Shown here in pieces: positions 40,566 to 55,990 of a DNA stretch of 64,000 bases. Position numbers and translations under genes: made by a program. Source of the stretch: Candidatus Nitronauta litoralis (lineage in GTDB: Bacteria > Nitrospinota > Nitrospinia > Nitrospinales > Nitrospinaceae). Under the pieces are notes generated by a model. The model saw nothing but the letters and a program-made list of their open reading frames with translations, was not told where the DNA came from and did no database searches. The stretch lies in the NCBI GenBank assembly GCA_015698285.1, contig CP048685.1, forward strand, positions 1,984,001-2,048,000, written 5' to 3'. How positions within the stretch are numbered: the stretch's first letter is position 1; the number at the start of each line of letters is the position of its first letter.

Positions 40566-41648
40566 ATGTTCCTTACAGCGAAAACACCTTTATTGGCCAT
40601 TGATATCGGTTCAAGCTCGGTAAAGCTGGCACAGCTTCAGGGGTCCGGAAGTCGATATGAATTGACCGCTTTCGGGGTCATGCCTCTTGAGCCTGATGCT
40701 GTCACTGACGGTATGGTTCGGGATGAAGAGGCTGTTGCGGATGCCTTGTCTCGCCTGGTGAAGGCGGAAAAGGTGGACACCCGGTTTGCCGTTTCCTCCC
40801 TTTCCGGAGAATCGGTCATCATTAAAAAGATCCAGATGCCGGTTTTGCCTGATGAAGAGCTGGAAGAATCCATCGCTCAGGAAGCGGAGCAGTATATTCC
40901 GTTTGAAATTGACGATGTCCGTCTGGACTATCAGAAACTCGATATTCAGGGGGGTGCCGGAGATGAATTCGGCGGCCTGGATGAAGAGGAAAAAGAAGAC
41001 ATCCTCCTGGTGGCCGTGCAAAACGACCTCATTGACAATCGGTCGGATGTGTTGACGGCGGCAGGACTGAAGCCTGTGATCATCGACCTCGATGTTTTTG
41101 CAGTATCCAACGCTCTCGCGATCCAGCGTGACCTTGAAACGATGGGTGGGGTTGCCGTTGTTGACCTTGGTAATTCGTTCACCCATGTCAACCTGCTCCT
41201 TGATGGAATTTCCTTTTTTACCCGGGACATCCCGCTGGGTGGCAGTGTTTTGACCTATCAATTAGGCAAGGATTACGGCCTGGATTTCAATGAAACCGAG
41301 GGGCTCAAGCAGGGTATTATCCCGGACAGCATTGACCGTCAGGAAGTCATCGACAAAATTGTTGATTCTTTCGATGGGATCATTGACGAGGTCCAGAAGT
41401 CTTTTGAATTTTTCAGTTCTACCTCAAACAGCACCATTGAGCAGGTATTCATTAGTGGAGGGGGCGCCATGATTCCGGGTGTGGATAACCTGCTTTCGGA
41501 TCGCCTGGCAGTTTCGGTGGAAGTATTCAATCCGTTGGAAACGGTGAAGATCAACCCAAGGAAATTTGACCGTGAAAGCATAAACCAGATGGCCCCTTTG
41601 GCCTCGGTTGTTGCAGGTCTTGCAACCAGAAGGTTTGACTACATATGA
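40566..41648 (+). CDS. pilM: type IV pilus assembly protein PilM
   Basis: 360 residues, actin-like ATPase. Motifs: LLAIDIGSSSVKLAQLQ (phosphate 1), a SHS2-like insert, VAVVDLGNSFTHVNLL (phosphate 2), and VFISGGGAMIPGVDNLLSD (adenosine). PilM is cytoplasmic and binds the N-terminus of PilN in the inner-membrane alignment complex. Its stop overlaps the pilN start (ATGA), as in many pilMNOPQ operons. An insert rich in Glu near residues 130-145 (DEFGGLDEEEKEDIL) is unusual. Confidence 0.92.
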   Translation: MFLTAKTPLLAIDIGSSSVKLAQLQGSGSRYELTAFGVMPLEPDAVTDGMVRDEEAVADALSRLVKAEKVDTRFAVSSLSGESVIIKKIQMPVLPDEELEESIAQEAEQYIPFEIDDVRLDYQKLDIQGGAGDEFGGLDEEEKEDILLVAVQNDLIDNRSDVLTAAGLKPVIIDLDVFAVSNALAIQRDLETMGGVAVVDLGNSFTHVNLLLDGISFFTRDIPLGGSVLTYQLGKDYGLDFNETEGLKQGIIPDSIDRQEVIDKIVDSFDGIIDEVQKSFEFFSSTSNSTIEQVFISGGGAMIPGVDNLLSDRLAVSVEVFNPLETVKINPRKFDRESINQMAPLASVVAGLATRRFDYI

Positions 41649-42286
41649 TCAAAATCAATCTTTACGATTACCAGCGAGTTGCACAGGAAGTCACCGTCCA
41701 GAAGATGGTGGTGACTGCGATGATGATTATTGGAGGTGCGATAGTCGTTACCGTAATGGCCGTTTTTGCAGACATCGCCCGTGTCAGTTCGGCTGAATCC
41801 GAGATGGTGGCAGCCCAAATGAAGGTAGACCAGATCAAACCTCAATTTGATGCAGTCCAGAAACTCAAAGCGGAACAGGGCACTCTCAATAAAAAAATTA
41901 CCAGTCTGTCCGATTTGCGTGCATCCAAAATTCCCTTTGCAAAATTGATGGAAGATGTTGGCCAGGTGACCCCGTCGGGTGTCTGGTTGAGCAAAATTGA
42001 ACAAGCCACGGAAGCCAAACTTAGAAGTGGAAACGTTCCCATCCTGTTCATCGAAAAAAGTAAAAAAGGCCCAAGTACAGAAGATCCCCATCTTTTTGTG
42101 AAGTTTCAAGGTAAGGCTTCATCGGATCGGGGTGTGGTTAGATTTATGGAAGGTCTGGAGACTTTGAGCTATCTCGACCATGTGCTCATGCATTCCAGCA
42201 AGCAGGGTTGGGTTGCCAACCGACCGGTGCGGACTTTTATCGTGTATGCCCATGTCGCGGGCACGGGACCCAAACCCAAAAAATAA
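41645..42286 (+). CDS. pilN: type IV pilus assembly protein PilN
   Basis: 213 residues. It starts MIKINLYDYQRVAQEV, which is the PilN motif that inserts in PilM, followed by one transmembrane helix (VTAMMIIGGAIVVTVMAVF), a coiled-coil region, and a periplasmic ferredoxin-like core. Overlaps pilM by 4 bp. PilN and PilO dimerise in the periplasm and help pass force to the secretin. Confidence 0.85.
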   Translation: MIKINLYDYQRVAQEVTVQKMVVTAMMIIGGAIVVTVMAVFADIARVSSAESEMVAAQMKVDQIKPQFDAVQKLKAEQGTLNKKITSLSDLRASKIPFAKLMEDVGQVTPSGVWLSKIEQATEAKLRSGNVPILFIEKSKKGPSTEDPHLFVKFQGKASSDRGVVRFMEGLETLSYLDHVLMHSSKQGWVANRPVRTFIVYAHVAGTGPKPKK

Positions 42287-42296
42287 GAGAGGACTT

Positions 42297-42929
42297 ATGG
42301 AAAAGTTATTTGACAGCTTACCGTATGCCGCTCTGGCGAGGATGACCAAGATCCAGTTTATTTTCCTTGGTCTGCTCATCGGAGGTCTTATTTTTGGGGC
42401 GTACTTTTTTACATTCCATTTGCAGAAAGAAGAAGAGTATGCGGCTCATGTGAAAAAGAAAACAGAGTTGGATGCCACATTCCTGCAGTACCAGACTGCG
42501 ATTGCTGGAAAGCCTGTTTTGGTCAGGTCCATTTCAACCTTGAAGGCGGATCTGGTGGAAGCCAGCAGGGTGCTGCCTCTCGAATCCGAGTTGCCTGAAC
42601 TGCTCCACCGGGTAACCGACATTGGAACTGTTCTGGGTGTGCAGATCGCAGACTTCAAAATTGGCCATCAAATCAATAAGCTTGATTTTTACAGCGAGGT
42701 CCCATTGGAAGTCAAAATCAACGGGGGATTCTACAACACCCTTGGGTTTTTCGACTGGCTTCAGAATCTTCTGCAGGTGGTTGATGTTAAGGAATTGGCA
42801 ATGAATTCGAAAATGACCAAAAGGCAGATTGTGAATGAGGACACTGGCAAGGTGGAGGTTAAATCTGTTGAAGGTATCCAGACAAGCATCAAGGCGACAA
42901 TTTACGCTTTTGCCGGAGACAGGAGCTGA
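42297..42929 (+). CDS. pilO: type IV pilus assembly protein PilO
   Basis: 210 residues from ATG 42297 (GAGAGGA upstream); the longer in-frame start at 42180 lies inside pilN and is rejected. One transmembrane helix (KIQFIFLGLLIGGLIFGAYFFTF), a coiled-coil stretch (QKEEEYAAHVKKKTELDATF), and a PilO core with LPLESELPELLHRVTDIGTVLGV and GGFYNTLGFFDWLQNL. It is the PilN partner. Confidence 0.88.
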   Translation: MEKLFDSLPYAALARMTKIQFIFLGLLIGGLIFGAYFFTFHLQKEEEYAAHVKKKTELDATFLQYQTAIAGKPVLVRSISTLKADLVEASRVLPLESELPELLHRVTDIGTVLGVQIADFKIGHQINKLDFYSEVPLEVKINGGFYNTLGFFDWLQNLLQVVDVKELAMNSKMTKRQIVNEDTGKVEVKSVEGIQTSIKATIYAFAGDRS

Positions 42930-42936
42930 TTCAATC

Positions 42937-44490
42937 ATGCATGATCCAAACGGGATGATTCAGGTAATGCAAACAATCCAAAAAAATATCCGGTTATTTC
43001 TGCTAACGGTTTTGGTAGTCGGTGTTTTGAGTGGCTCAGCCATTGGTGCACAGGCACCAGCCAGTTCGGTCGGGGCCAGCAATGGGCTGGTCCGCCAATT
43101 ATTGGCAGACAGCGGGCTGGATGCAGCCAAAGCTTTCATGGCGGAATCCGAATTGCCTACCGAAATGTTTTCAGACCCCTTATCTCTTCTTTATATGGTG
43201 GCTCCCGACGGTAAACTGAAACTGATTCGGGAACTCTACCAGGGAACCTTTGATTCTGAAGAATATTTTGACGCGATTCAACGCCGTTTTCAAAAAGACC
43301 TGAATTCACAGCATGCCCATAAGGTGTTGGAATTTCTTGCCACCCCATTGGGGCAACAGTCGGTTCAGATGGAAGTACAGTTTTTGAACGATTACCTCTG
43401 GTTTTTATCGCGTGGAAAGGATTTTCTGGGACATTATCGAGAAAAAATGGGACCTGAAAACCTTCCCACGGGTCAACGGTTGTTTCTTACCGGACGGATG
43501 CTGAGGGCGCGGGATCTGGTGAGTCTTGGTATGAGGGTCAACAGTTCAATACTGGCAGTGGCTTCCCCTTTGAAACCGTATTACAACCAGGGGCCATCTG
43601 ACGATAAAGAAAAAATAGTTAAGGAAGACCTTCCTGAATACATCAAAACATTACATATCATGTTCCTGTCCCGAATTTACAGGGAAATGCCTGATGATCG
43701 TTTTAAAGAGCTGGTGAAGTTCTATGAATCTTCTGCCGGTCGCTGGTACCAGAGGACCCGCAACCGTGGCCAGATGGATGCCCAGGACCGTATGAATCAG
43801 CAGGCGCGTATGCGCGTGGCCTCTGTAATGAAAGCATTTGAAGCGGGCAAAGGTGAAAAAGAAATTCTTTATAAAATGTTTCCTCCCGGAATTCGCCAGC
43901 TTTTTGTCCGGAAACGTGATCCGTTCCAGCCTCTTATCTACGCTGGTATGGATAAGGAAAAGAAAGAAAAGGTGGAAGAGGTTCCTGTCCCGGTTGATCG
44001 CTTTGTAGGGACGGATAAAAGATTCGAGACAATTCCGCTGGAGGCTTACAACCAGTTGAAAGAGATCGATCCTCAGCTTTATCAGGATCTGGAGTTCTAC
44101 GGCAAATTGTTTCAGGAGCGAACAGAACTGGAAGCGTTGTCCGATGAAGAATTTGAGGAAGAGGTGTCCCGCTACCAGGCATTAATAGAAAAAGCGAAAG
44201 ACGTGATGGCCAACTCGGTTCTCACGCCGTTGCAGGTAGGTTACGGAAACCTCCAACTGGTAGGTTTGATGGATAACGGGATAGAAAACGTGGGACTGAT
44301 CCAGGCCACCGACTCAAAAGGTTACACAGTAAAAAAAGGAATGTTGATAGGGCCTAATTTTGGAGTCGTGGAATCAATTAATGAAGAACGTATCGAAGTG
44401 GTCGAAAGGGCCCGCGATCATGAAGGAAACATCCTGTCGACAGTGCAGTTTATTGCATTTGCCGATCCGGAAGGTTCCGAAGAAAAATAA
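42937..44490 (+). CDS. pilP: PilP-like lipoprotein-domain protein with long N-terminal extension
   Basis: 517 residues from ATG 42937 (AGGAG upstream), much longer than normal PilP (about 170). A hydrophobic N-terminal segment (IRLFLLTVLVVGVLSGSAIGA) resembles a signal anchor or cleavable signal; there is no lipobox cysteine. Residues about 40-310 contain two DUF2059-like helical units (LIRELYQGTFDSEEYFDAIQRRF and LSRIYREMPDDRFKELVKFYE). From Asp328 (RKRDPFQPL) to the end lies the PilP part, with LTPLQVGYGNLQLVGLMDNG, YTVKKGMLIGPNFG and VVESINEERI. PilP links PilNO to the PilQ secretin; the extra N-terminal region has no known role here. Confidence 0.78.
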   Translation: MHDPNGMIQVMQTIQKNIRLFLLTVLVVGVLSGSAIGAQAPASSVGASNGLVRQLLADSGLDAAKAFMAESELPTEMFSDPLSLLYMVAPDGKLKLIRELYQGTFDSEEYFDAIQRRFQKDLNSQHAHKVLEFLATPLGQQSVQMEVQFLNDYLWFLSRGKDFLGHYREKMGPENLPTGQRLFLTGRMLRARDLVSLGMRVNSSILAVASPLKPYYNQGPSDDKEKIVKEDLPEYIKTLHIMFLSRIYREMPDDRFKELVKFYESSAGRWYQRTRNRGQMDAQDRMNQQARMRVASVMKAFEAGKGEKEILYKMFPPGIRQLFVRKRDPFQPLIYAGMDKEKKEKVEEVPVPVDRFVGTDKRFETIPLEAYNQLKEIDPQLYQDLEFYGKLFQERTELEALSDEEFEEEVSRYQALIEKAKDVMANSVLTPLQVGYGNLQLVGLMDNGIENVGLIQATDSKGYTVKKGMLIGPNFGVVESINEERIEVVERARDHEGNILSTVQFIAFADPEGSEEK

Positions 44491-44504
44491 ACTAGGGGAA
44501 GGCC

Positions 44505-46427
44505 GTGAAACAAACAACCTGGAGACTTGGCTTAGCCGGACTATTGGTCGTTTTAACCTGGGGAATGGTCCCTGTATTGGCTGCGACTGCTCCTGCAGAA
44601 GTCCCGGAAGAAATGGTGGCGCAGGCGGGTTCGACTGAAAGTGCAGAAAACAATGAGCCATCCCGTGCCACGATAACCGATATCCGCACAGAAACAGCAG
44701 GCGATGAGGTTACCGTAGAGGTAGAAGCGACAGGGGATCTTCAATACACGGCCTTTAAACTGATGGACCCCCTCCGTCTGGTACTGGATTTTCAGAATAT
44801 GGAGACCACAAGCGTTTCAGGGTTGACGGATATCAATAAAGGTGTCGTCAAGTCCATTCGCCCTCTTTATTTTGATGATGCGGCGGTTCAACGCCTGGAA
44901 TTTGATCTGGCTTCTACAGCTGTTTATGAAATCCAGAAGCCGGAAAGCAATAAGCTGGTGATAAAGCTGAAAGGTGCAGAAATGCAGGCGGCGGCACCTG
45001 AACCGGAAAAGATGCCGGTAATGAAGGATGAAACCGCCGATCCGGAAATGAACCCGGAAATGGGATCCATGAATACTCGTGGTGTTCCAGGCTTTCAGCC
45101 GACGGAACTCAGCTCGGACATCTGTGACAGCATACTGAATGAAAAAGACCGGTTGATAAAGGTTGAGTTCCAGAATGCAGAATTGAGAAACATTTTTCGC
45201 TTTCTTGCAGAGAGTGAAAACGTCAATCTGGTGGTTTCCCAATCAGTTAGTGGAACAGTGACCATGAAGGTTGATGCCGTTGCATGGAAAAATGTACTCG
45301 AACTGATTCTTGCAAACTACAAACTGGGAAGAAAATGCGAAGGGAATGTGGTTCGGATTGGACTTGAAGACGATTTGATCGCCGAGCGGTTCAATCAGCC
45401 TTTGATCACCCAGATGGTCAGGTTGAATTATGGCGATCCGGACGAAGTGATCAAGAATCTGGACAAAATGAAGTCAAATTTTGGCAAGGTCGTTTCCGAT
45501 AAGAGGACAAACTCGATAATCGTTACCGATACGGAAACCAGTGTTCTCGACATGATGACCGTCATTAATAATCTTGATCAACCGACCACTCAGGTTCAGA
45601 TCGAATCCAAGATTATCCAGATCAACAGGGATTTTCTTCAGGAGATTGGTATCCAGTGGGGATTCGACGGTGTGGCTTTCCGAAACCCGGATTTTCCAAA
45701 TGCAATTGCGTTTAGTGGTGCCGCAGTGGGTGATGGTGCTCTTTCAGCGCCGGTGGGTGCCGGTAGAGTTGACCTTGGGGGTACTCCGGGAAATCTTCCA
45801 GCAACCGCCCAATTGGCAACTCCTCGGTTAACTCCAGGGTTCATCGTGGATCTTGCAACGGTGGGCACTCCTTTTGGTGGCATTGCAACCTCTCTCCGGG
45901 CTCTGGGTGGAGATGTGACTCTGGATCTTCAGTTGAGTGCTCTGGAACGACAGGGTAAATCCAAAACAGTGGCTTCTCCAAAAGTAACAACTCTGAATAA
46001 CAAAGAAGCCAAGATCAGGAGTGGTACGCGTCTTCCATTCCAGACTACGGACCCTGCAGAAGGAACCAAGATTGAATTTATTGATGCGGTGATCGAGCTC
46101 AAGGTAACCCCTCAGATCACTTCAGAAGATATGGTCTATATGAAAGTAGCGGCACAGCAAAATACGCCTGATCCGGTCAGGAATGTTGGGGGTACGCCGG
46201 TAATCCTGACCAAAGAAGCTTTCACTGAACTTCTGGTCGGTGACAAAGATACAGCGGTCATCGGCGGATTGTTTCAGAAACGGGTGACGGATACAACCCG
46301 GGCTATTCCCTACGCTTCTGAAATTCCGATCATTGGGCAATTGTTCAAGAGTAATGCGGATTCTGACAATATCAGTGAGTTGCTGATTCTTATAAAACCA
46401 ACCATTGTCAAAGGACTGGACTCCTGA
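44505..46427 (+). CDS. pilQ: PilQ secretin with AMIN domain
   Basis: 640 residues from GTG 44505 (GGGGAAGG upstream). A signal peptide (LAGLLVVLTWGMVPVLA) precedes an AMIN domain (about residues 55-160) that binds peptidoglycan. Then come the secretin N-domains (IKVEFQNAELRNIFRFLAESENVNLVV and MVRLNYGDPDEVIKNLDK), and the secretin barrel domain ending VVIGGLFQKR-like (TAVIGGLFQKRVTDTTR) and ELLILIKPTIV. It forms the outer-membrane channel for the pilus. A Gly/Ala-rich insertion sits in the barrel region. It is followed in tandem by a paralogue. Confidence 0.92.
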   Translation: MKQTTWRLGLAGLLVVLTWGMVPVLAATAPAEVPEEMVAQAGSTESAENNEPSRATITDIRTETAGDEVTVEVEATGDLQYTAFKLMDPLRLVLDFQNMETTSVSGLTDINKGVVKSIRPLYFDDAAVQRLEFDLASTAVYEIQKPESNKLVIKLKGAEMQAAAPEPEKMPVMKDETADPEMNPEMGSMNTRGVPGFQPTELSSDICDSILNEKDRLIKVEFQNAELRNIFRFLAESENVNLVVSQSVSGTVTMKVDAVAWKNVLELILANYKLGRKCEGNVVRIGLEDDLIAERFNQPLITQMVRLNYGDPDEVIKNLDKMKSNFGKVVSDKRTNSIIVTDTETSVLDMMTVINNLDQPTTQVQIESKIIQINRDFLQEIGIQWGFDGVAFRNPDFPNAIAFSGAAVGDGALSAPVGAGRVDLGGTPGNLPATAQLATPRLTPGFIVDLATVGTPFGGIATSLRALGGDVTLDLQLSALERQGKSKTVASPKVTTLNNKEAKIRSGTRLPFQTTDPAEGTKIEFIDAVIELKVTPQITSEDMVYMKVAAQQNTPDPVRNVGGTPVILTKEAFTELLVGDKDTAVIGGLFQKRVTDTTRAIPYASEIPIIGQLFKSNADSDNISELLILIKPTIVKGLDS

Positions 46428-46485
46428 AGCTTCTCAGGGATTTGAACGAGCAGGCTATAAGGACTTTGTAAAAAAGGAAAATACT

Positions 46486-47925
46486 ATGACCAGGTGGAAC
46501 AGGTTGGAATACAAATTAATGAAATGCGGTTCCCTGTTTGGAGCCGTAGCCTCGATATTGCTTCTTGCAGTTAATCCGGTCTGGAGTATGGGCAATACAG
46601 GCAAGAATAAGGCTGTCGTTACCTCGAGCAGTTTCATTGATGCCTGTGAATCTATTTTTGAAAAGAATCAGACTCCCCTGTCACTGGACTTCCAGGAAGC
46701 CCCTATTGAAGATGTGATGCAGATCATTTCTGAGGTTTCGGGCATGAATATTGTCATGGCTCCTGAAATCCAGGGAAATACAACCGTGATGTTGAACGAT
46801 GTCCCCTGGGGACTGGCGCTGGATATTGTCCTTGATAATGCTGTGCTGGGAAGAGTGTGCGACGAGAATATCATCCGCGTGGATACAAAAGAATCATTTC
46901 GGACTGCCAAGGATCGAGGAGAGATGGTCACCGAAATGATCCGTATCAATTATGCAAACCTTCAGGAAGTCGCGACCCGGGTTAAAGCCCTGCAGACTGC
47001 TGCGGGAACTGTAACCTTCAACGAACGGACTAATACTCTGGTCATGATGGATACGGAAGAGATGATCAAGGATCTTATCGGTGTGGTGAGGAACCTGGAT
47101 ATTCCGACACCCCAGGTGCAGATTGCTTCCAAAATAGTTCAGATCAACCGGAACTTCCTGCAGGAACTGGGTATTCAGTGGGGTTTTTCTACGATCACAA
47201 CGCGAAATCCTCAATTCCCCAACACTATTATCACCACAGGTGCGGCGGCAGGTTCCGGTGTTCTTTCTTCGGGTGGTGGGGCAGGGTTTGATGCTGCAGG
47301 GCTTGGTGGAAACGGCGGGATCAATAATGGTTTTATGGTGGATCTTGCTACTGAACAGCTACCATTTCTGGGGCTTGCCTCCAGTCTTCTCAGTCGGGAT
47401 GGTGATCATACTCTGGATGTACAGTTGTCTGCCATGGAACGTCAGGGTAAGAGCCGAACCATTGCAAACCCAAAAGTCTCTACTGCGGATAACAAACAAG
47501 CCAAGATTCGACAGGGTGAGAGAATTCCATTCCAGACGTTTTCGCAGAATGAAGGTGTGAAAACTGAATTTGTCGATGCCAACCTGGAACTATTGGTGAC
47601 CCCGCATATCACTGCCGATCAAAAAGTATATTTGCAGGTGACGGCGCAACAGAACTCTCCCGACTTTGCCAACACAGTCGGTGGCGCTCCGAGAATCGAT
47701 ACCCGTGAAGCCGTTACAGAAGTTCTGGTGGTTGACGGTGGCACGGCAATTCTGGGCGGTTTGCATCAAAGGACTCAGGTAGAAAACCGTCGGGCAATTC
47801 CTTATCTTGCAGATATCCCGATTCTGGGTTTGCTGTTTAAAAGTAACCTGGAGCGTGACACTGTAGATGAGCTCCTCATCTTTGTGACCCCCTCAATTAT
47901 CAAAGCCGAACAGCCCAATTCATGA
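46486..47925 (+). CDS. second PilQ-like secretin lacking the AMIN domain
   Basis: 479 residues from ATG 46486; an in-frame start at 46405 overlaps the first secretin and is rejected. Signal peptide (GSLFGAVASILLLAVNPVWS), N-domain (LDFQEAPIEDVMQIISEVSGMN), NolW-type repeat (IRINYANLQEVATRVKAL) and a full secretin domain with VQIASKIVQINRNFLQELG nearly identical to the upstream copy (VQIESKIIQINRDFLQEIG). It ends ELLIFVTPSIIK. There is no AMIN domain, so it cannot attach to peptidoglycan the same way. It may form mixed rings with PilQ or serve a different channel. Its stop overlaps aroB. Confidence 0.85.
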   Translation: MTRWNRLEYKLMKCGSLFGAVASILLLAVNPVWSMGNTGKNKAVVTSSSFIDACESIFEKNQTPLSLDFQEAPIEDVMQIISEVSGMNIVMAPEIQGNTTVMLNDVPWGLALDIVLDNAVLGRVCDENIIRVDTKESFRTAKDRGEMVTEMIRINYANLQEVATRVKALQTAAGTVTFNERTNTLVMMDTEEMIKDLIGVVRNLDIPTPQVQIASKIVQINRNFLQELGIQWGFSTITTRNPQFPNTIITTGAAAGSGVLSSGGGAGFDAAGLGGNGGINNGFMVDLATEQLPFLGLASSLLSRDGDHTLDVQLSAMERQGKSRTIANPKVSTADNKQAKIRQGERIPFQTFSQNEGVKTEFVDANLELLVTPHITADQKVYLQVTAQQNSPDFANTVGGAPRIDTREAVTEVLVVDGGTAILGGLHQRTQVENRRAIPYLADIPILGLLFKSNLERDTVDELLIFVTPSIIKAEQPNS

Positions 47926-49513: not shown

Positions 49514-50179
49514 ATGTCAACCATCAAGTGGAAACAGAAAATGAAAGATTTAATCACTACCGCATCTAGAGGCCAGGAGAGTTCCTTAAGGGAATTGGAG
49601 GGCGAGGCGCGGTGGAGAGGAAATGAAAAAGGCTTTACCCTGATTGAACTACTAACCGTGATCGCCATGATTGCAATACTTTCATCGGTGGCGATACCCA
49701 GTTTCAATGTCTGGTTATACAAGTACCGGGCAGATTCAGAAGCCAGTCGGTTGTATTTCAATCTTATGGCTGCCAAGCAGCGGGCCATCAGGAATAACAG
49801 CACAATGATCGTTACATTTTCGACAACCAATGACAACTATATCATCCATGAAGATCTAAATGACGACGGAAACATTGATCTGGGTGAAACAGTCGATACC
49901 ATTCCCCTGGAAAATGAAATGGTTTTTGGAATATTGCCGGGTGTATTAGGGGTGTGGGGAACGGCCGTGTCTAACCCGGTTGCCCTTAACGGGGGCTCAA
50001 CGATCAAGTTTCTTTCGCAAGGTCGGGCAGACCGCAGTGGCGCGATCTACATGGTGCCAGGTTCCGATTTACTATCCGGTTTTAAAGGAAATCAACGGGC
50101 GGTCAAGGTTGTGCAGGCTACAGGAAATGTTGAAGTTGTGAAATATTCAGCAGGCGCGACACCAGGGCCTTGGAGCTAA
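49514..50179 (+). CDS. FimT/GspH-type minor pilin
   Basis: 221 residues from ATG 49514 (GAAAGG five bases upstream). An unusually long leader of 40 residues precedes the prepilin peptidase site RGNEKG / FTLIELLTVIAMIAILSSVA, with the conserved Glu at mature position 5. Alternative starts at ATG 49541 or TTG 49595 would give leaders of 31 or 13 residues; the last would be more usual. The body is beta-rich, GspH-like (RADSEASRLYFNLMAAKQRAIRNN). It is likely a minor pilin of the pilus tip complex, and starts a four-gene pilin group. Confidence 0.82.
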   Translation: MSTIKWKQKMKDLITTASRGQESSLRELEGEARWRGNEKGFTLIELLTVIAMIAILSSVAIPSFNVWLYKYRADSEASRLYFNLMAAKQRAIRNNSTMIVTFSTTNDNYIIHEDLNDDGNIDLGETVDTIPLENEMVFGILPGVLGVWGTAVSNPVALNGGSTIKFLSQGRADRSGAIYMVPGSDLLSGFKGNQRAVKVVQATGNVEVVKYSAGATPGPWS

Positions 50180-50183
50180 TAAA

Positions 50184-50759
50184 ATGAAAAAATTAATAAA
50201 AGCACAATCGAATAAAAAGGTGTCCCGCCCAAATAACAGGGAGTCGGGTTTTACCCTGGTTGAGGTTTTGATCAGCATGGCCATTTTTTCGGTGGGCATT
50301 TTAGGTCTCATGACTTCTATCGGAACCGTCATGGATTACCAGAAAGATGCTAATGACATGACCCAGGCCACACTCCTGACAAAAGAAAAAATTGAAGAGC
50401 TCAAAGCAGTAGCAGCCAATGAGAATACTCTGGTGGGTGGAACCTACGGGTTTAATTATTTTGTTGGTGAGTACACAGACATCACGATACCGGGATCGAC
50501 ACCTCCGAAAAAATTTTTTAAAGAAGATGGCAATTCCCGCTATGTCAACAACGGCAATGGTGAAGTTTTCGACAAGTTCACAAGAAAAACCACCCTGAGC
50601 ATACCACCGGGAACGGGCGGTGATTTTACCGATGCAAACCAACAGTTCATTCGGTTTGTTCGCGTGGATGTGGTCACCAGTTGGACTGATTCAAGGGGAC
50701 ATCCAAAGGATGTCAGTTTGTCAGTCGTTATGAATCGACGAAAGATTTTTCAACAATAA
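50184..50759 (+). CDS. pilV: PilV-type minor pilin
   Basis: 191 residues. A 22-residue leader (MKKLIKAQSNKKVSRPNNRE, then SG) precedes FTLVEVLISMAIFSVGILGLM, with mature Glu5 and the PilV-typical MAIFSVGILG. The globular part has a TKEKIEELKAVAANE helix and ends with SRGHPKDVSLSVVMNRR. It starts 4 bp after the FimT-like stop. Minor pilins of this type prime pilus assembly with FimU, PilW and PilX. Confidence 0.85.
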   Translation: MKKLIKAQSNKKVSRPNNRESGFTLVEVLISMAIFSVGILGLMTSIGTVMDYQKDANDMTQATLLTKEKIEELKAVAANENTLVGGTYGFNYFVGEYTDITIPGSTPPKKFFKEDGNSRYVNNGNGEVFDKFTRKTTLSIPPGTGGDFTDANQQFIRFVRVDVVTSWTDSRGHPKDVSLSVVMNRRKIFQQ

Positions 50760-52752: not shown

Positions 52753-55700
52753 ATGAAATGCCTCAAACGAAATCAATATAAATGGAATGACCAGGGTGGT
52801 TTCACCATAATGGAATTGATCATTGCATCGGCGATCTCCATTATGGTGCTGGGAATGGTTGCACAGGTTTTTACCCAGCAAAGGGCGGCTTTTTCCAACC
52901 AGACCAATATGGCCAAAATGGTGGCCAACGGCCGTGGTGCAGTGGAATTTGTTACCCGCGCTATCCAAAATGCTGGATATCACGTGATCCGGGGTGGAAA
53001 AATTCTCAGCGGTGGCGACCATTACGTTACCACTGTATCGGATCTTGACGATGACGGCGTGGTTGAGGGTGAAGAAATTCTGACCTATGTTGTCTCCAGT
53101 GTGAATGGGGCGAACAACCGATCCATTTCGTTTGATGCTTATTTTGATATGAATGGAGACGGGAAATTGCTTTCATCTGAAACCGCCACCTACACTGTCA
53201 ATTATTCTCTCAATGGCCCTCCCTTTAATCTTTTGCAATTTACACCTAAAGCGGATGGCACCCTGGACAGCTACGTGGTCGCGGAAAATATTGATAATCT
53301 GGTTTTTCGTTTCTACGACCATAGTGGCAATGAAATGGGAGTGAACGCAGTGGATGGATCGGCCCCAACAAAAACCGACGGGCTCAATGACCTTCCGATC
53401 CGGGTTGAAAACAATAAGCTTCCTATCGTCAGGACGGTGAACATGGAATACACCGTACGAACAAAGGATCCTGATGAAAATGCCCATTTTATCAATACAG
53501 GTTCCTATATTGATGGCAGCGTAGCCACCCAGACAAGCGGAACTCCTCAGGCAGCGACTGGGGGTTACACTGATTCCTATCGCCGTCAGGTGATGACAGC
53601 GCAGGCTTCACCGCGCAACCTGGGGCTGGCTCCTTTCGGGCGATTGACTATTCAGCCCTCGCAAAATCCAATTGTTTGTCCTGAAACGTCTACACCGTTT
53701 ACCGTAACTGCAGTGGATTCTGCAGGTGCTGCGATTGATAACTGGAATGTCAACTTGCGAGTCACAGACCCTACCAATGTCTCGGTTTCTTCAAATTCAG
53801 TGACAACAGATTCCCAGGGTGAGGCGGTAGGAGCGATCAGTTATAACTGGGTCACTCCAAGTTTCACCACCACACTGTCAGCAGATGCGCAGTGGACGGA
53901 CCTCGACGGTACGCTAAGATCGGTTATCACCTCGGTACCGATTTCATTTGTTTCGCCAACGGGTGCCGGTGTATTTGATGACTTTAATGATGGAGATGCC
54001 ATTGGCTGGGCGGCTGATAACCCGAGCCAGTGGGAAGTTGATAACAACGAATACAAACTGGTAGATGGCCCATCTGGTACGGTCAATGCGATCAACCCGA
54101 TGCATCAGGGTGATGCCACCGCTGATGATAAAGAAACGATTGCGAATTACACGGTATCTGCCGGTGCTGGTGGGCATCTGAAACTGGTTGTCGGTGTGGG
54201 TGCGGAAGCGACCCTCTCAGGTGGTACGCCCACGGTTCTCAATCCACAGGAATATGCGAATGGAGGGGGTGCTTCCAAGGCTTTCACAACCCCTACTTAC
54301 ACAATTCCAAATGCTTCCAATCCACAGAACACACTCAAACTGGTAGTGGTAGTCTCCACAGAAGATAGCAGCAGTGGTGATCTGACTGCAGCCAGCGCTT
54401 CTTTCGGCGGCGTTGCCATGGAGAAGATTCTCGGGCAACAAACCAATTCCTCCTATGAAGCTGCAACGACCATGTTTTACCTTGACGTGACGGCGGGGCA
54501 GTCGGGTCCGATCGCAATTGGTTGGCCTCAGGCATCCCAGAGCTATCAGGTGGTCAACGTGGTCACCCTGGAAAATGTTCAGCCCGGTGGCCCGGAAGTC
54601 GCCGGGGTTGGTTTCAAAAACTCTTCTGGAAACGTATCCAATGCGACAGTGGCCACGCTCAATGACGACACATTGTTGGTCCTTGGCGCTACTTCTGGTG
54701 ACACGGGTTCGTTTACGGCAACCGGTCCAGGTCATACCATTCACAGCAACAATAACACCACGGATGGCGGAACCATGCGCGGTGCGCTGGGAACGGCCCT
54801 GATTCCAACTGCTGGTACAGTAACAAACCTGGGCATGAGCGGAAGTGCCAACCGCATGTCCCTCGTGATCGCCGGGTTTGCACCTTCCTCAGCCGCGTCA
54901 ACGACACCAACCTATGTTCGCTTTAATGGAACGGATATGAATCAGGTTGCCACCTCGCAGTTTGCTGGTGGAACGGGTGTTACCGGCAGCACTCTGTATG
55001 AGCTGGATGTCAACGCAGGTGATTCTGGATCCATTGATGTGCAATGGGCCCAGGAAACCAGTGAGCGTTTCATTACCGTTGCGACTTTGACTGATGTTGC
55101 TTCAGGTCCTATTATCGCTGCGCAGACGGGTACTGCGGCTGATGAAAATAACAATGCAACGGATATCAACATTAACGCTGTGACCCAGGGTTCGATAGCG
55201 GTTTCTTTCGGTTTCGAGAACCATACGGACAAAGTCCAGCAAAAAGGGCCCGGTCATAACCTGTTGATTGATGAGCAGACGGTGAGTGGAACCAGTGCTA
55301 CCTGGGGTGGTATGGGAACTGTGGATGTTCTGGCCGATGGCAACCTGAATGGTTTCGGTTATCAGGGTTCACACACCCGGCGCGCCGCAGTAATGGCAAA
55401 CTTCAAACCGGCTCTGGTTACCGTCAATGACGAAATCACTTCCACCGGTTGTCAGCCCTGGTCTGATGTAGAAGTTCTGGTCAAGATGAAAAACCGGGGT
55501 AATGTCAGTTCGCCTCGTTTTGCAGGAGCAATCGTCCGCTATGAGAATGCGAACAACTATTACTTTGTCCGGGTACAGCACGATACAGTGACTACCCCCG
55601 TGAAAGAGGAAAACTACACCTTGACTCTGATCAAGCGGGATGGTGGAGTGGAAACACCAGTAGGTGCTTCCGAAACCATTACGTTTGAAACCTCTACCCT

Positions 55701-55926
55701 GGCAACCCCGGTTGATTATTACCTGCGGGTTCGAGTGGTCGGTGATGATTTCAAGGTCCGGTGGTGGAAACCAGCCGACCCGACCAGTCCCACGGCGGAT
55801 GAACCGGCAACATGGAATCTTGAAAGGAACGATGCGGGTACCTCTGTTACTGCTGGAACCATTGGAATCATGTCAAATCGGCAGGAATTCCTCTTCGACA
55901 ATGTGAGTGCCGGACCTCCGGTATAG
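52753..55926 (+). CDS. giant PilW-like minor pilin with adhesin-type modules
   Basis: 1057 residues from ATG 52753 (AGGTG upstream); the longer frame to 52606 overlaps the PilX-like gene. A 16-residue leader ends QGG, cut before FTIMELIIASAISIMVLGMVAQVF (Glu5 present). Residues to about 290 are PilW-like. Then follow an Ig-like domain (PSQNPIVCPETSTPFTVTAV to TTLSADAQW), two related beta-rich domains each containing a TFG/GHxxH-type GPGH motif (TATGPGHTIHS; QQKGPGHNLLI), and a C-terminal concanavalin/LamG-like domain (FAGAIVRYENANNYYFVRVQ to GIMSNRQEFLFDN). It looks like a pilus-tip adhesin. No PilY1 is seen in the window. A terminator follows. Confidence 0.82.
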   Translation: MKCLKRNQYKWNDQGGFTIMELIIASAISIMVLGMVAQVFTQQRAAFSNQTNMAKMVANGRGAVEFVTRAIQNAGYHVIRGGKILSGGDHYVTTVSDLDDDGVVEGEEILTYVVSSVNGANNRSISFDAYFDMNGDGKLLSSETATYTVNYSLNGPPFNLLQFTPKADGTLDSYVVAENIDNLVFRFYDHSGNEMGVNAVDGSAPTKTDGLNDLPIRVENNKLPIVRTVNMEYTVRTKDPDENAHFINTGSYIDGSVATQTSGTPQAATGGYTDSYRRQVMTAQASPRNLGLAPFGRLTIQPSQNPIVCPETSTPFTVTAVDSAGAAIDNWNVNLRVTDPTNVSVSSNSVTTDSQGEAVGAISYNWVTPSFTTTLSADAQWTDLDGTLRSVITSVPISFVSPTGAGVFDDFNDGDAIGWAADNPSQWEVDNNEYKLVDGPSGTVNAINPMHQGDATADDKETIANYTVSAGAGGHLKLVVGVGAEATLSGGTPTVLNPQEYANGGGASKAFTTPTYTIPNASNPQNTLKLVVVVSTEDSSSGDLTAASASFGGVAMEKILGQQTNSSYEAATTMFYLDVTAGQSGPIAIGWPQASQSYQVVNVVTLENVQPGGPEVAGVGFKNSSGNVSNATVATLNDDTLLVLGATSGDTGSFTATGPGHTIHSNNNTTDGGTMRGALGTALIPTAGTVTNLGMSGSANRMSLVIAGFAPSSAASTTPTYVRFNGTDMNQVATSQFAGGTGVTGSTLYELDVNAGDSGSIDVQWAQETSERFITVATLTDVASGPIIAAQTGTAADENNNATDININAVTQGSIAVSFGFENHTDKVQQKGPGHNLLIDEQTVSGTSATWGGMGTVDVLADGNLNGFGYQGSHTRRAAVMANFKPALVTVNDEITSTGCQPWSDVEVLVKMKNRGNVSSPRFAGAIVRYENANNYYFVRVQHDTVTTPVKEENYTLTLIKRDGGVETPVGASETITFETSTLATPVDYYLRVRVVGDDFKVRWWKPADPTSPTADEPATWNLERNDAGTSVTAGTIGIMSNRQEFLFDNVSAGPPV

Positions 55927-55950
55927 TCAGCGTCTAAGTAAAGCCTTAGA

Positions 55951-55990
55951 AAGCCCCCTGGATATTTCCAGGGGGCTTTTCTTTTTTCTT
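55951..55990 (+). terminator. rho-independent terminator after the pilin operon
   Basis: Stem AAGCCCCCTGG / CCAGGGGGCTT (55951-55961 and 55968-55978) with a 6-nt loop, then a T-rich tail (ttttcttttttc). It reads plus and closes the minor-pilin transcript 25 bp after the PilW-like stop. Confidence 0.92.

Follow-up and report, generated by a model that had tools for sequence, protein, structure and literature searches.

A giant modular PilW-like minor pilin with a nested, phage-tail-like insertion is a candidate tip adhesin of a PilY1-less type IVa pilus in Nitrospinota

How might a type IVa pilus carry an adhesin at its tip when PilY1 is missing? This question is raised by the last gene of a pilus cluster in Candidatus Nitronauta litoralis, whose product (hereafter giant PilW) begins as a prepilin and continues far beyond the size of an ordinary minor pilin. 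We analyzed it within a stretch of 64,000 nucleotides (hereafter the window), together with relatives from other Nitrospinota genomes. Giant PilW is probably a modular minor pilin of the PilW/GspJ type that serves as the tip adhesin for a type IVa pilus lacking PilY1.

The gene occupies positions 52753-55926 of the forward strand and comprises an intact frame of 1057 amino acids plus a stop codon. The longest possible ORF begins at GTG 52606, within the upstream gene; we favored ATG 52753 as the start, since it gives the usual short leader and has AGGTGA on its 5' side. An artefact, frameshift or mis-assembly was ruled out, as three genomes are concordant. In this complete, single-contig genome (3,921,641 bases), giant PilW is encoded by the final gene of a pilMNOPQ-aroB-fimT-pilV-pilX-pilW cluster (Table 1), in which the gene at 47922 is presumably aroB, named from its translation. 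The 652-aa PilX-like pilin encoded immediately upstream is a likely partner of giant PilW.

Several neighbors show features of their own. The PilX-like protein bears a conserved long extension, and it displays weak matches to cyanobacterial HpsA at its C-terminus (E 4.9e-6) and to tapirin at its N-terminus. Within the PilP-like protein, the PilP match is confined to a region near the C-terminus; such long PilP frames, of about 490-560 aa, are frequent in the order, while the PilP frames of several sister lineages have about 170-240 aa. The gene that follows giant PilW (56091) resembles an aldehyde dehydrogenase.

Table 1. Features of the giant PilW gene and of the pilus cluster that it closes (positions are those of the window).
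Feature	Position	Strand	Basis or remark
pilM, pilN, pilO, pilP-like and two tandem pilQ-like secretin genes	40566..47925	+	type IVa pilus machinery upstream
pilM	begins 40566	+	
pilN	begins 41645	+	
pilO	begins 42180	+	
pilP-like gene	42835-44490	+	551 aa
First PilQ-type secretin gene	44505-46427	+	has AMIN domain
Second PilQ-type secretin gene	46405-47925	+	without AMIN domain; overlaps first secretin gene
FimT/GspH-like minor pilin	49514..50179	+	GspH 2.1e-5; gspH 1.2e-10, under its curated cut-off
PilV/GspI-like minor pilin	50184..50759	+	N_methyl 1.6e-9; PilV 7.9e-10, under its curated cut-off
Enlarged PilX/GspK-like minor pilin, 652 aa	50772..52730	+	PilX_N and GspK N-terminal matches, sub-threshold
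Prepilin leader, N-terminal helix and PilW/GspJ-type pilin head (residues 1-292)	52753..53628	+	homology to short PilW; N_methyl sub-threshold, E 0.0013
Ig-like domain (residues 293-403)	53629..53961	+	Big_1 sub-threshold, E 0.012; beta strands in model
First part of concanavalin/CBM66-type domain (residues 404-440), GVFDDFNDGDAIGW...NNEYKL	53962..54072	+	aligned with uninterrupted homologues
Whole genus-specific insertion inside concanavalin domain (residues 441-890)	54073..55422	+	in 3 genomes of genus g1; absent from other aligned full-length homologues
N-terminal strands of module R2 (residues 458-491), severed from body by R1	54124..54225	+	HMM positions 5-31 at residues 462-490, i-E 3.4e-4; also a separate hit in module search of 77 genomes
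Complete module R1 (residues 506-711), phage minor-tail-type beta sandwich	54268..54885	+	AF2, BFVD Foldseek, PHROG_553
Body of module R2 (residues 713-886)	54889..55410	+	HMM positions 29-199, i-E 3e-29
Remaining concanavalin/CBM66-type domain (residues 891-1057)	55423..55923	+	Foldseek CBM66 4b1m/4azz
Strong intrinsic-terminator-like hairpin, 14 pairs	55949..55980	+	directly 3' of giant PilW gene

Giant PilW begins with the leader MKCLKRNQYKWNDQG-G / FTIMELI, whose Glu is position 5 of the mature protein, and it displays the elements of a class III signal peptide as found in type IV pilins (GG/FTIMELIIASAISIMVLGMVAQVF, leader Gly, hydrophobic segment, and Glu5). Cleavage is expected after G16 (codon 52798-52800), and an N-terminal helix spans residues 19-72 of the predicted model. 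Curated pilin families match the protein below threshold only; a BLAST comparison with the short PilW proteins of sister PilV-PilW-PilX(-PilY1) loci identified the head as PilW/GspJ-type, with E-values of 1e-12 to 1e-16. The sequence signal for an Ig-like domain in residues 293-403 is weak, with a Big_1 score of 16.2 bits against a Pfam cut-off of 34.9. Two cysteines, Cys309 in this domain (53677-53679) and Cys900 in the concanavalin-type domain (55450-55452), are each invariant in 22/22 homologues. Since no other cysteine is common to all 22, a disulfide between Cys309 and Cys900 is plausible and may connect the Ig and lectin domains.

The full-length model of giant PilW is only moderate to poor (pLDDT 62.8, pTM 0.40), good over the pilin head and the C-terminal domain and poor over much of the insert. 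A Foldseek search of the PDB with this model returned the CBM66 structures 4b1m and 4azz as the best matches (E 4.6e-5, TM 0.62-0.65 over the target, rmsd 2.5-2.8), and the list also includes thrombospondin C-terminal domains and galectin-11. The C-terminal domain thus matches a CBM66/ConA-like jelly roll at the fold level, and a recognizable ConA/CBM66 fold beyond the pilin head marks giant PilW as a modular pilin. Although the jelly roll is common to giant PilW and the CBM66 of Bacillus subtilis, a likeness known at the fold level, identity between the two is about 15%, and in this genus the jelly roll is interrupted by an insertion. From the modeled fold, we infer that the concanavalin domain binds carbohydrate. 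Sequence searches against solved structures gave nothing useful for giant PilW or its inserted module. An enzymatic reading was ruled out, as curated family searches matched no catalytic family in the giant PilW modules and the GH43 matches of Foldseek span about 170-190 columns, which is the size of a beta-sandwich module.

Full-length homologues from the order cover two parts of giant PilW, residues 1-440 and about 892-1057, and run almost directly from ...NWNVASGQYK(S/T) to ...NGCxxWQDY without an insert. Since these uninterrupted homologues pass almost directly across that point, the roughly 450 extra residues lie within one domain, a claim that rests on the alignment given the poor full-length model. 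The insert consists of two ~200-aa copies of one module, R1 and R2. To examine their nesting, we used an HMM built without any R2 copy, which matches R1 at full length (residues 508-711) and finds R2 on both sides of it, at residues 462-490 and 713-886. R2 is thus split after its first strands, with R1 in the gap; the two R2 parts, once joined, match the remaining module copies from end to end. An HMM built from a second pilus locus alone (see below) yielded the identical split, which is common to all three genomes of the genus. The architecture predicted from these alignments is pilin - Ig - ConA[ R2[ R1 ] ].

The first-pass annotation of this gene had recognized a standard prepilin N-terminus (FTIMELI), an Ig-like module, two related domains with a GPGH motif, and a concanavalin-like end. 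GG/FTIMELI with Glu5 bears out the first of these, and the CBM66 and galectin-11 matches support the last at the level of fold. The Ig-like module shows beta strands in the model but stays below the Big_1 threshold. While Ig, repeated, and lectin-like parts are all present, their layout differs from the one described: the repeats lie inside the lectin fold, with R1 inside R2, and not between the Ig and lectin domains. Both modules carry GPGH (residues 658 and 832), but the motif is not strictly conserved, as other copies read GAGH, GPSH, GSGH, GTGH, or GTDH and two lack it. A catalytic or binding signature was therefore ruled out, and GPGH serves as a landmark only.

All three species retain the complete architecture, the other two proteins being 63-73% identical to giant PilW, and pN/pS ranges from 0.16 to 0.46 across all modules, so that conservation of the architecture exceeds chance. 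For the closest pair, in which dS is saturated, pN/pS is 0.16 in the pilin part versus 0.22-0.28 in the distal modules. Every part of giant PilW is constrained, the distal parts less so.

We then considered what the inserted module resembles. R1 alone folds confidently as an all-beta structure (AF2 pLDDT 85.6, pTM 0.88). A Foldseek search of the PDB with this model gave only incoherent matches, none convincing, and Pfam holds no family for the module. The viral structure library BFVD yielded 59 matches at E <= 0.001, the best of which is near-full-length (E 3.4e-12, TM 0.80, probability 1.00). Most of these are uncharacterized Caudovirales proteins, along with minor tail proteins of Mycobacterium or Gordonia phages, and R1 shares 10-23% identity with the phage proteins in these Foldseek matches. 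A search of the PHROG families with R1 returned PHROG_553, annotated as minor tail protein (E 1.9e-5). An hhalign comparison with gp21-type minor tail proteins gave E 1.4e-5 and 80% probability over 166 collinear columns, from small profiles, while an unrelated Ig-ConA control profile received 0.4% probability. The module profile also placed the minor tail protein gp21 first among 34 Tweety proteins (E 0.0023). Collectively, these results make a resemblance in predicted fold between R1 and phage minor tail proteins well supported. The mycobacteriophage proteins (PHROG_553, PHROG_2106; Tweety gp21) share with R1 a predicted fold and a collinear profile match, but identity is low, and giant PilW differs in carrying its modules within a bacterial pilin, where one splits the other.

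Descent of the module from phage is not shown by these comparisons, which covered the PDB and the viral library at the level of structure. The repeats may instead be generic bacterial surface beta-sandwich domains, whose phage likeness would reflect a widely shared fold and not a phage origin; we regard this as a serious possibility for the module, if a somewhat doubtful one. The low identity to phage proteins fits it, as does the failure of translated searches of viral contigs, plasmids, and phages to find the module. PHROG_553 was matched by R1, with no PHROG match for R2 or the full-length proteins, the 80% hhalign probability came from small profiles, and structure searches spanning the PDB and the viral library leave room for bacterial relatives. 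A generic fold sits less easily with near-full-length matches to many phage proteins, at TM up to 0.80 and probability 1.00, when the PDB offers nothing convincing; the same holds for the collinear profile-profile alignment with its low-scoring control and for the top rank of gp21 within Tweety. A PHROG_553 search across whole genomes missed even known copies of the module and thus sets no bound on its spread.

Using our own HMM, we searched 77 Nitrospinota genomes and found the module to be confined to this genus, where each of the three genomes carries two pairs, the first in PilW and the other in a second protein. In the genome of the window, this second protein is a 597-aa pilin-like product (L050:9064-10857, from G000:C1:2610000-2629000), whose N-terminus appears GspK/PilX-like when judged by eye and has no Pfam match. 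Its locus encodes pilins, a PilM-like protein, a secretin, an AAA ATPase with a SPOR domain, and a TPR protein, a gene content that suggests an MSHA-like pilus. As in giant PilW, the module is paired in the 597-aa pilin, but there the copies stand in tandem and are not nested, and we detected no Ig or ConA domain. An adjoining 418-aa pilin (L050:10857-12113, reverse strand) has a long C-terminal extension without a Pfam match. Taken together, we tentatively propose that a phage-tail binding module was domesticated for pilus tips in a lineage without PilY1: one genus-specific module would serve two pili, nested twice into the lectin domain of a type IVa PilW and placed as a tandem pair within the GspK-like pilin that belongs to another, MSHA-like pilus. 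This is quite possible, though we do not favor it with confidence.

Giant PilW has shorter relatives throughout the order. These proteins of 573-642 aa consist of a pilin, an Ig-like domain, and a concanavalin-type domain. Within the order, 28 genomes preserve this core, and nearly all named relatives come from Nitrospinota MAGs. Two records titled Nitrosomonadaceae and Nitrospirae (L039 and L040) bear the extended PilW seen in Nitrospinota and are possibly misnamed or mixed bins. Several members of the order encode, near the extended PilW, an additional short PilW-like pilin of about 258-265 aa along with a PilX-like protein of ~441-449 aa (L117:15530-17634, also G046:C60, G051:C7, and G041:C200).

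The absence of PilY1 from the pilin group, which the first-pass annotation had pointed out, extends to the genome as a whole: neither the curated family PF05567 nor a profile of sister-lineage PilY1 proteins matched giant PilW or anything else on the single contig. In the order, the PF05567 search uncovered no PilY1 in 61 genomes (three sub-threshold matches reached 12-13 bits), and the sister-lineage profile found none in 64. As positive controls, PF05567 matched 7/13 and the profile 8/13 sister-lineage genomes. The contrast between 0/64 and 8/13 gives a Fisher p of 6e-8, which is overstated because genomes within a lineage are not independent. Sister loci encode a short PilW (217-252 aa) and a short PilX (164-219 aa), and most of them have a gene for PilY1 (1167-1524 aa) nearby. 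In the order of giant PilW, by contrast, PilX has 608-652 aa (three compared) and PilW 573-1057 aa. Long PilX relatives occur in 26/28 genomes with an extended PilW and in none without (p 1.6e-18, likewise overstated by non-independence of lineage genomes). This pattern fits a replacement of PilY1 by the extended PilW without proving it. In the order, PilP is matched in about 22 genomes that have neither PilY1 nor an extended PilW, perhaps owing to incomplete assembly or other pilus types; the absence of PilY1 therefore does not require an extended PilW, and some such pili work otherwise.

What giant PilW might do is best approached from known systems. In Streptococcus sanguinis PilC, a pilin part is followed by an Ig module and a ConA lectin. 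Experiments have shown that it binds glycans, namely sialylated ones and probes of the heparin type, and it has been placed in a proposed complex at the tip of a pilus that has no PilY1 (PMC9934059). Giant PilW has the same module order, with a ConA-type carbohydrate-binding fold after an Ig-like module, and is likewise a minor pilin of a PilY1-less pilus. However, PilC is a protein of about 53 kDa from a monoderm, and giant PilW comes from a diderm, is 1057 aa long, and combines a pilin head of full size with two nested inserts in its lectin domain; the likeness is one of architecture, and we do not claim shared ancestry. With PilY1/PilC (T4P_PilY1, PF05567), giant PilW has in common the proposed role of a large adhesin of modular build that sits at the tip of a type IVa pilus, but giant PilW lacks the PilY1 domain and is itself a pilin. 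Drawing on the module order common to giant PilW and S. sanguinis PilC, carbohydrate-mediated attachment at the pilus tip is the most likely function, and the inserted modules would add a surface for recognition. Prepilin peptidase would cut giant PilW after Gly16, and PilW would assemble with FimT, PilV, and PilX at the filament tip, where its bulky extension would be displayed. The concanavalin domain could then bind glycans of particles, biofilms, or cell surfaces, and the modules carried on a loop of the lectin domain might supply another surface for binding, a role that their counterparts might also have on phage tails. The earlier suggestion of a tip adhesin accordingly gains from the lack of PilY1 elsewhere in the genome and from the lack of a match to an enzyme catalytic domain; adhesion and tip location themselves we infer from architecture, synteny, and the S. 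sanguinis precedent.

Giant PilW could alternatively be chiefly a structural or priming subunit of the tip, with extensions that act as spacers to lift or shield it and bind no specific ligand. Ig-like domains and beta-sandwich repeats often form stalks, GPGH is not invariant, and no conserved ligand pocket has been shown. We nevertheless consider a mere spacer unlikely, since the far-end domain conserved across the order has a carbohydrate-binding fold, and the insertion occupies a loop of the ConA domain instead of lengthening a stalk. It is similarly improbable that a protein from outside the pil cluster, MshQ-like or an unrelated adhesin, caps the pilus and leaves giant PilW a secondary role. 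PilP-positive genomes of the order without an extended PilW would fit such a cap, but PilY1 is absent by both the curated family and the sister-lineage profile. The MshQ family PF20419 (DUF6701) had no match in the genome of the window either, in a search in which no positive control matched. Least probable is a short secretion pseudopilus or DNA-uptake filament in which giant PilW recognizes cargo or DNA and not a surface: the FimT/PilV/PilX/PilW set does resemble GspH-I-K-J, the PilX-like N-terminus matches GspK, and the secretin genes form a tandem pair, but the upstream PilM, PilN, PilO, and PilP with an AMIN-domain secretin follow the type IVa pilus arrangement, and a domain of ConA/CBM66 fold points to carbohydrate.

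Pilins of modular build occur widely (PMC8179133), and examples with a ConA lectin are already known. S. sanguinis PilB and other modular pilins likewise present an effector domain on a filament by joining it to a pilin, but their extra domains are described as arranged in series (PMC8179133), whereas those of giant PilW are nested and of phage-tail type. In the open-access literature, we found nothing on point for Nitrospinota pili or for phage-tail domains in minor pilins. The new elements are the nested insertion, the phage-tail-type modules common to two pilus systems of one genus, and the PilY1 contrast within a phylum. Beyond the first-pass annotation, our analysis thus adds the order-wide pilin-Ig-ConA core, the nested genus-specific insertion, the likeness to phage minor tail proteins, and the module in a second pilus locus.

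If our reading of giant PilW as a tip adhesin is true, a diderm type IVa pilus would dispense with PilY1 by means of enlarged tip pilins, as known from S. sanguinis, and one phylum would offer both PilY1 states for comparison, given the sister Nitrospinota that combine PilY1 with short PilW and PilX. Giant PilW would also be a naturally occurring adhesin in which inserted domains are nested, and it suggests that phage tails and pilus tips exchange binding modules. For the organisms themselves, it is a candidate for the attachment of marine nitrite oxidizers to particles and biofilms.
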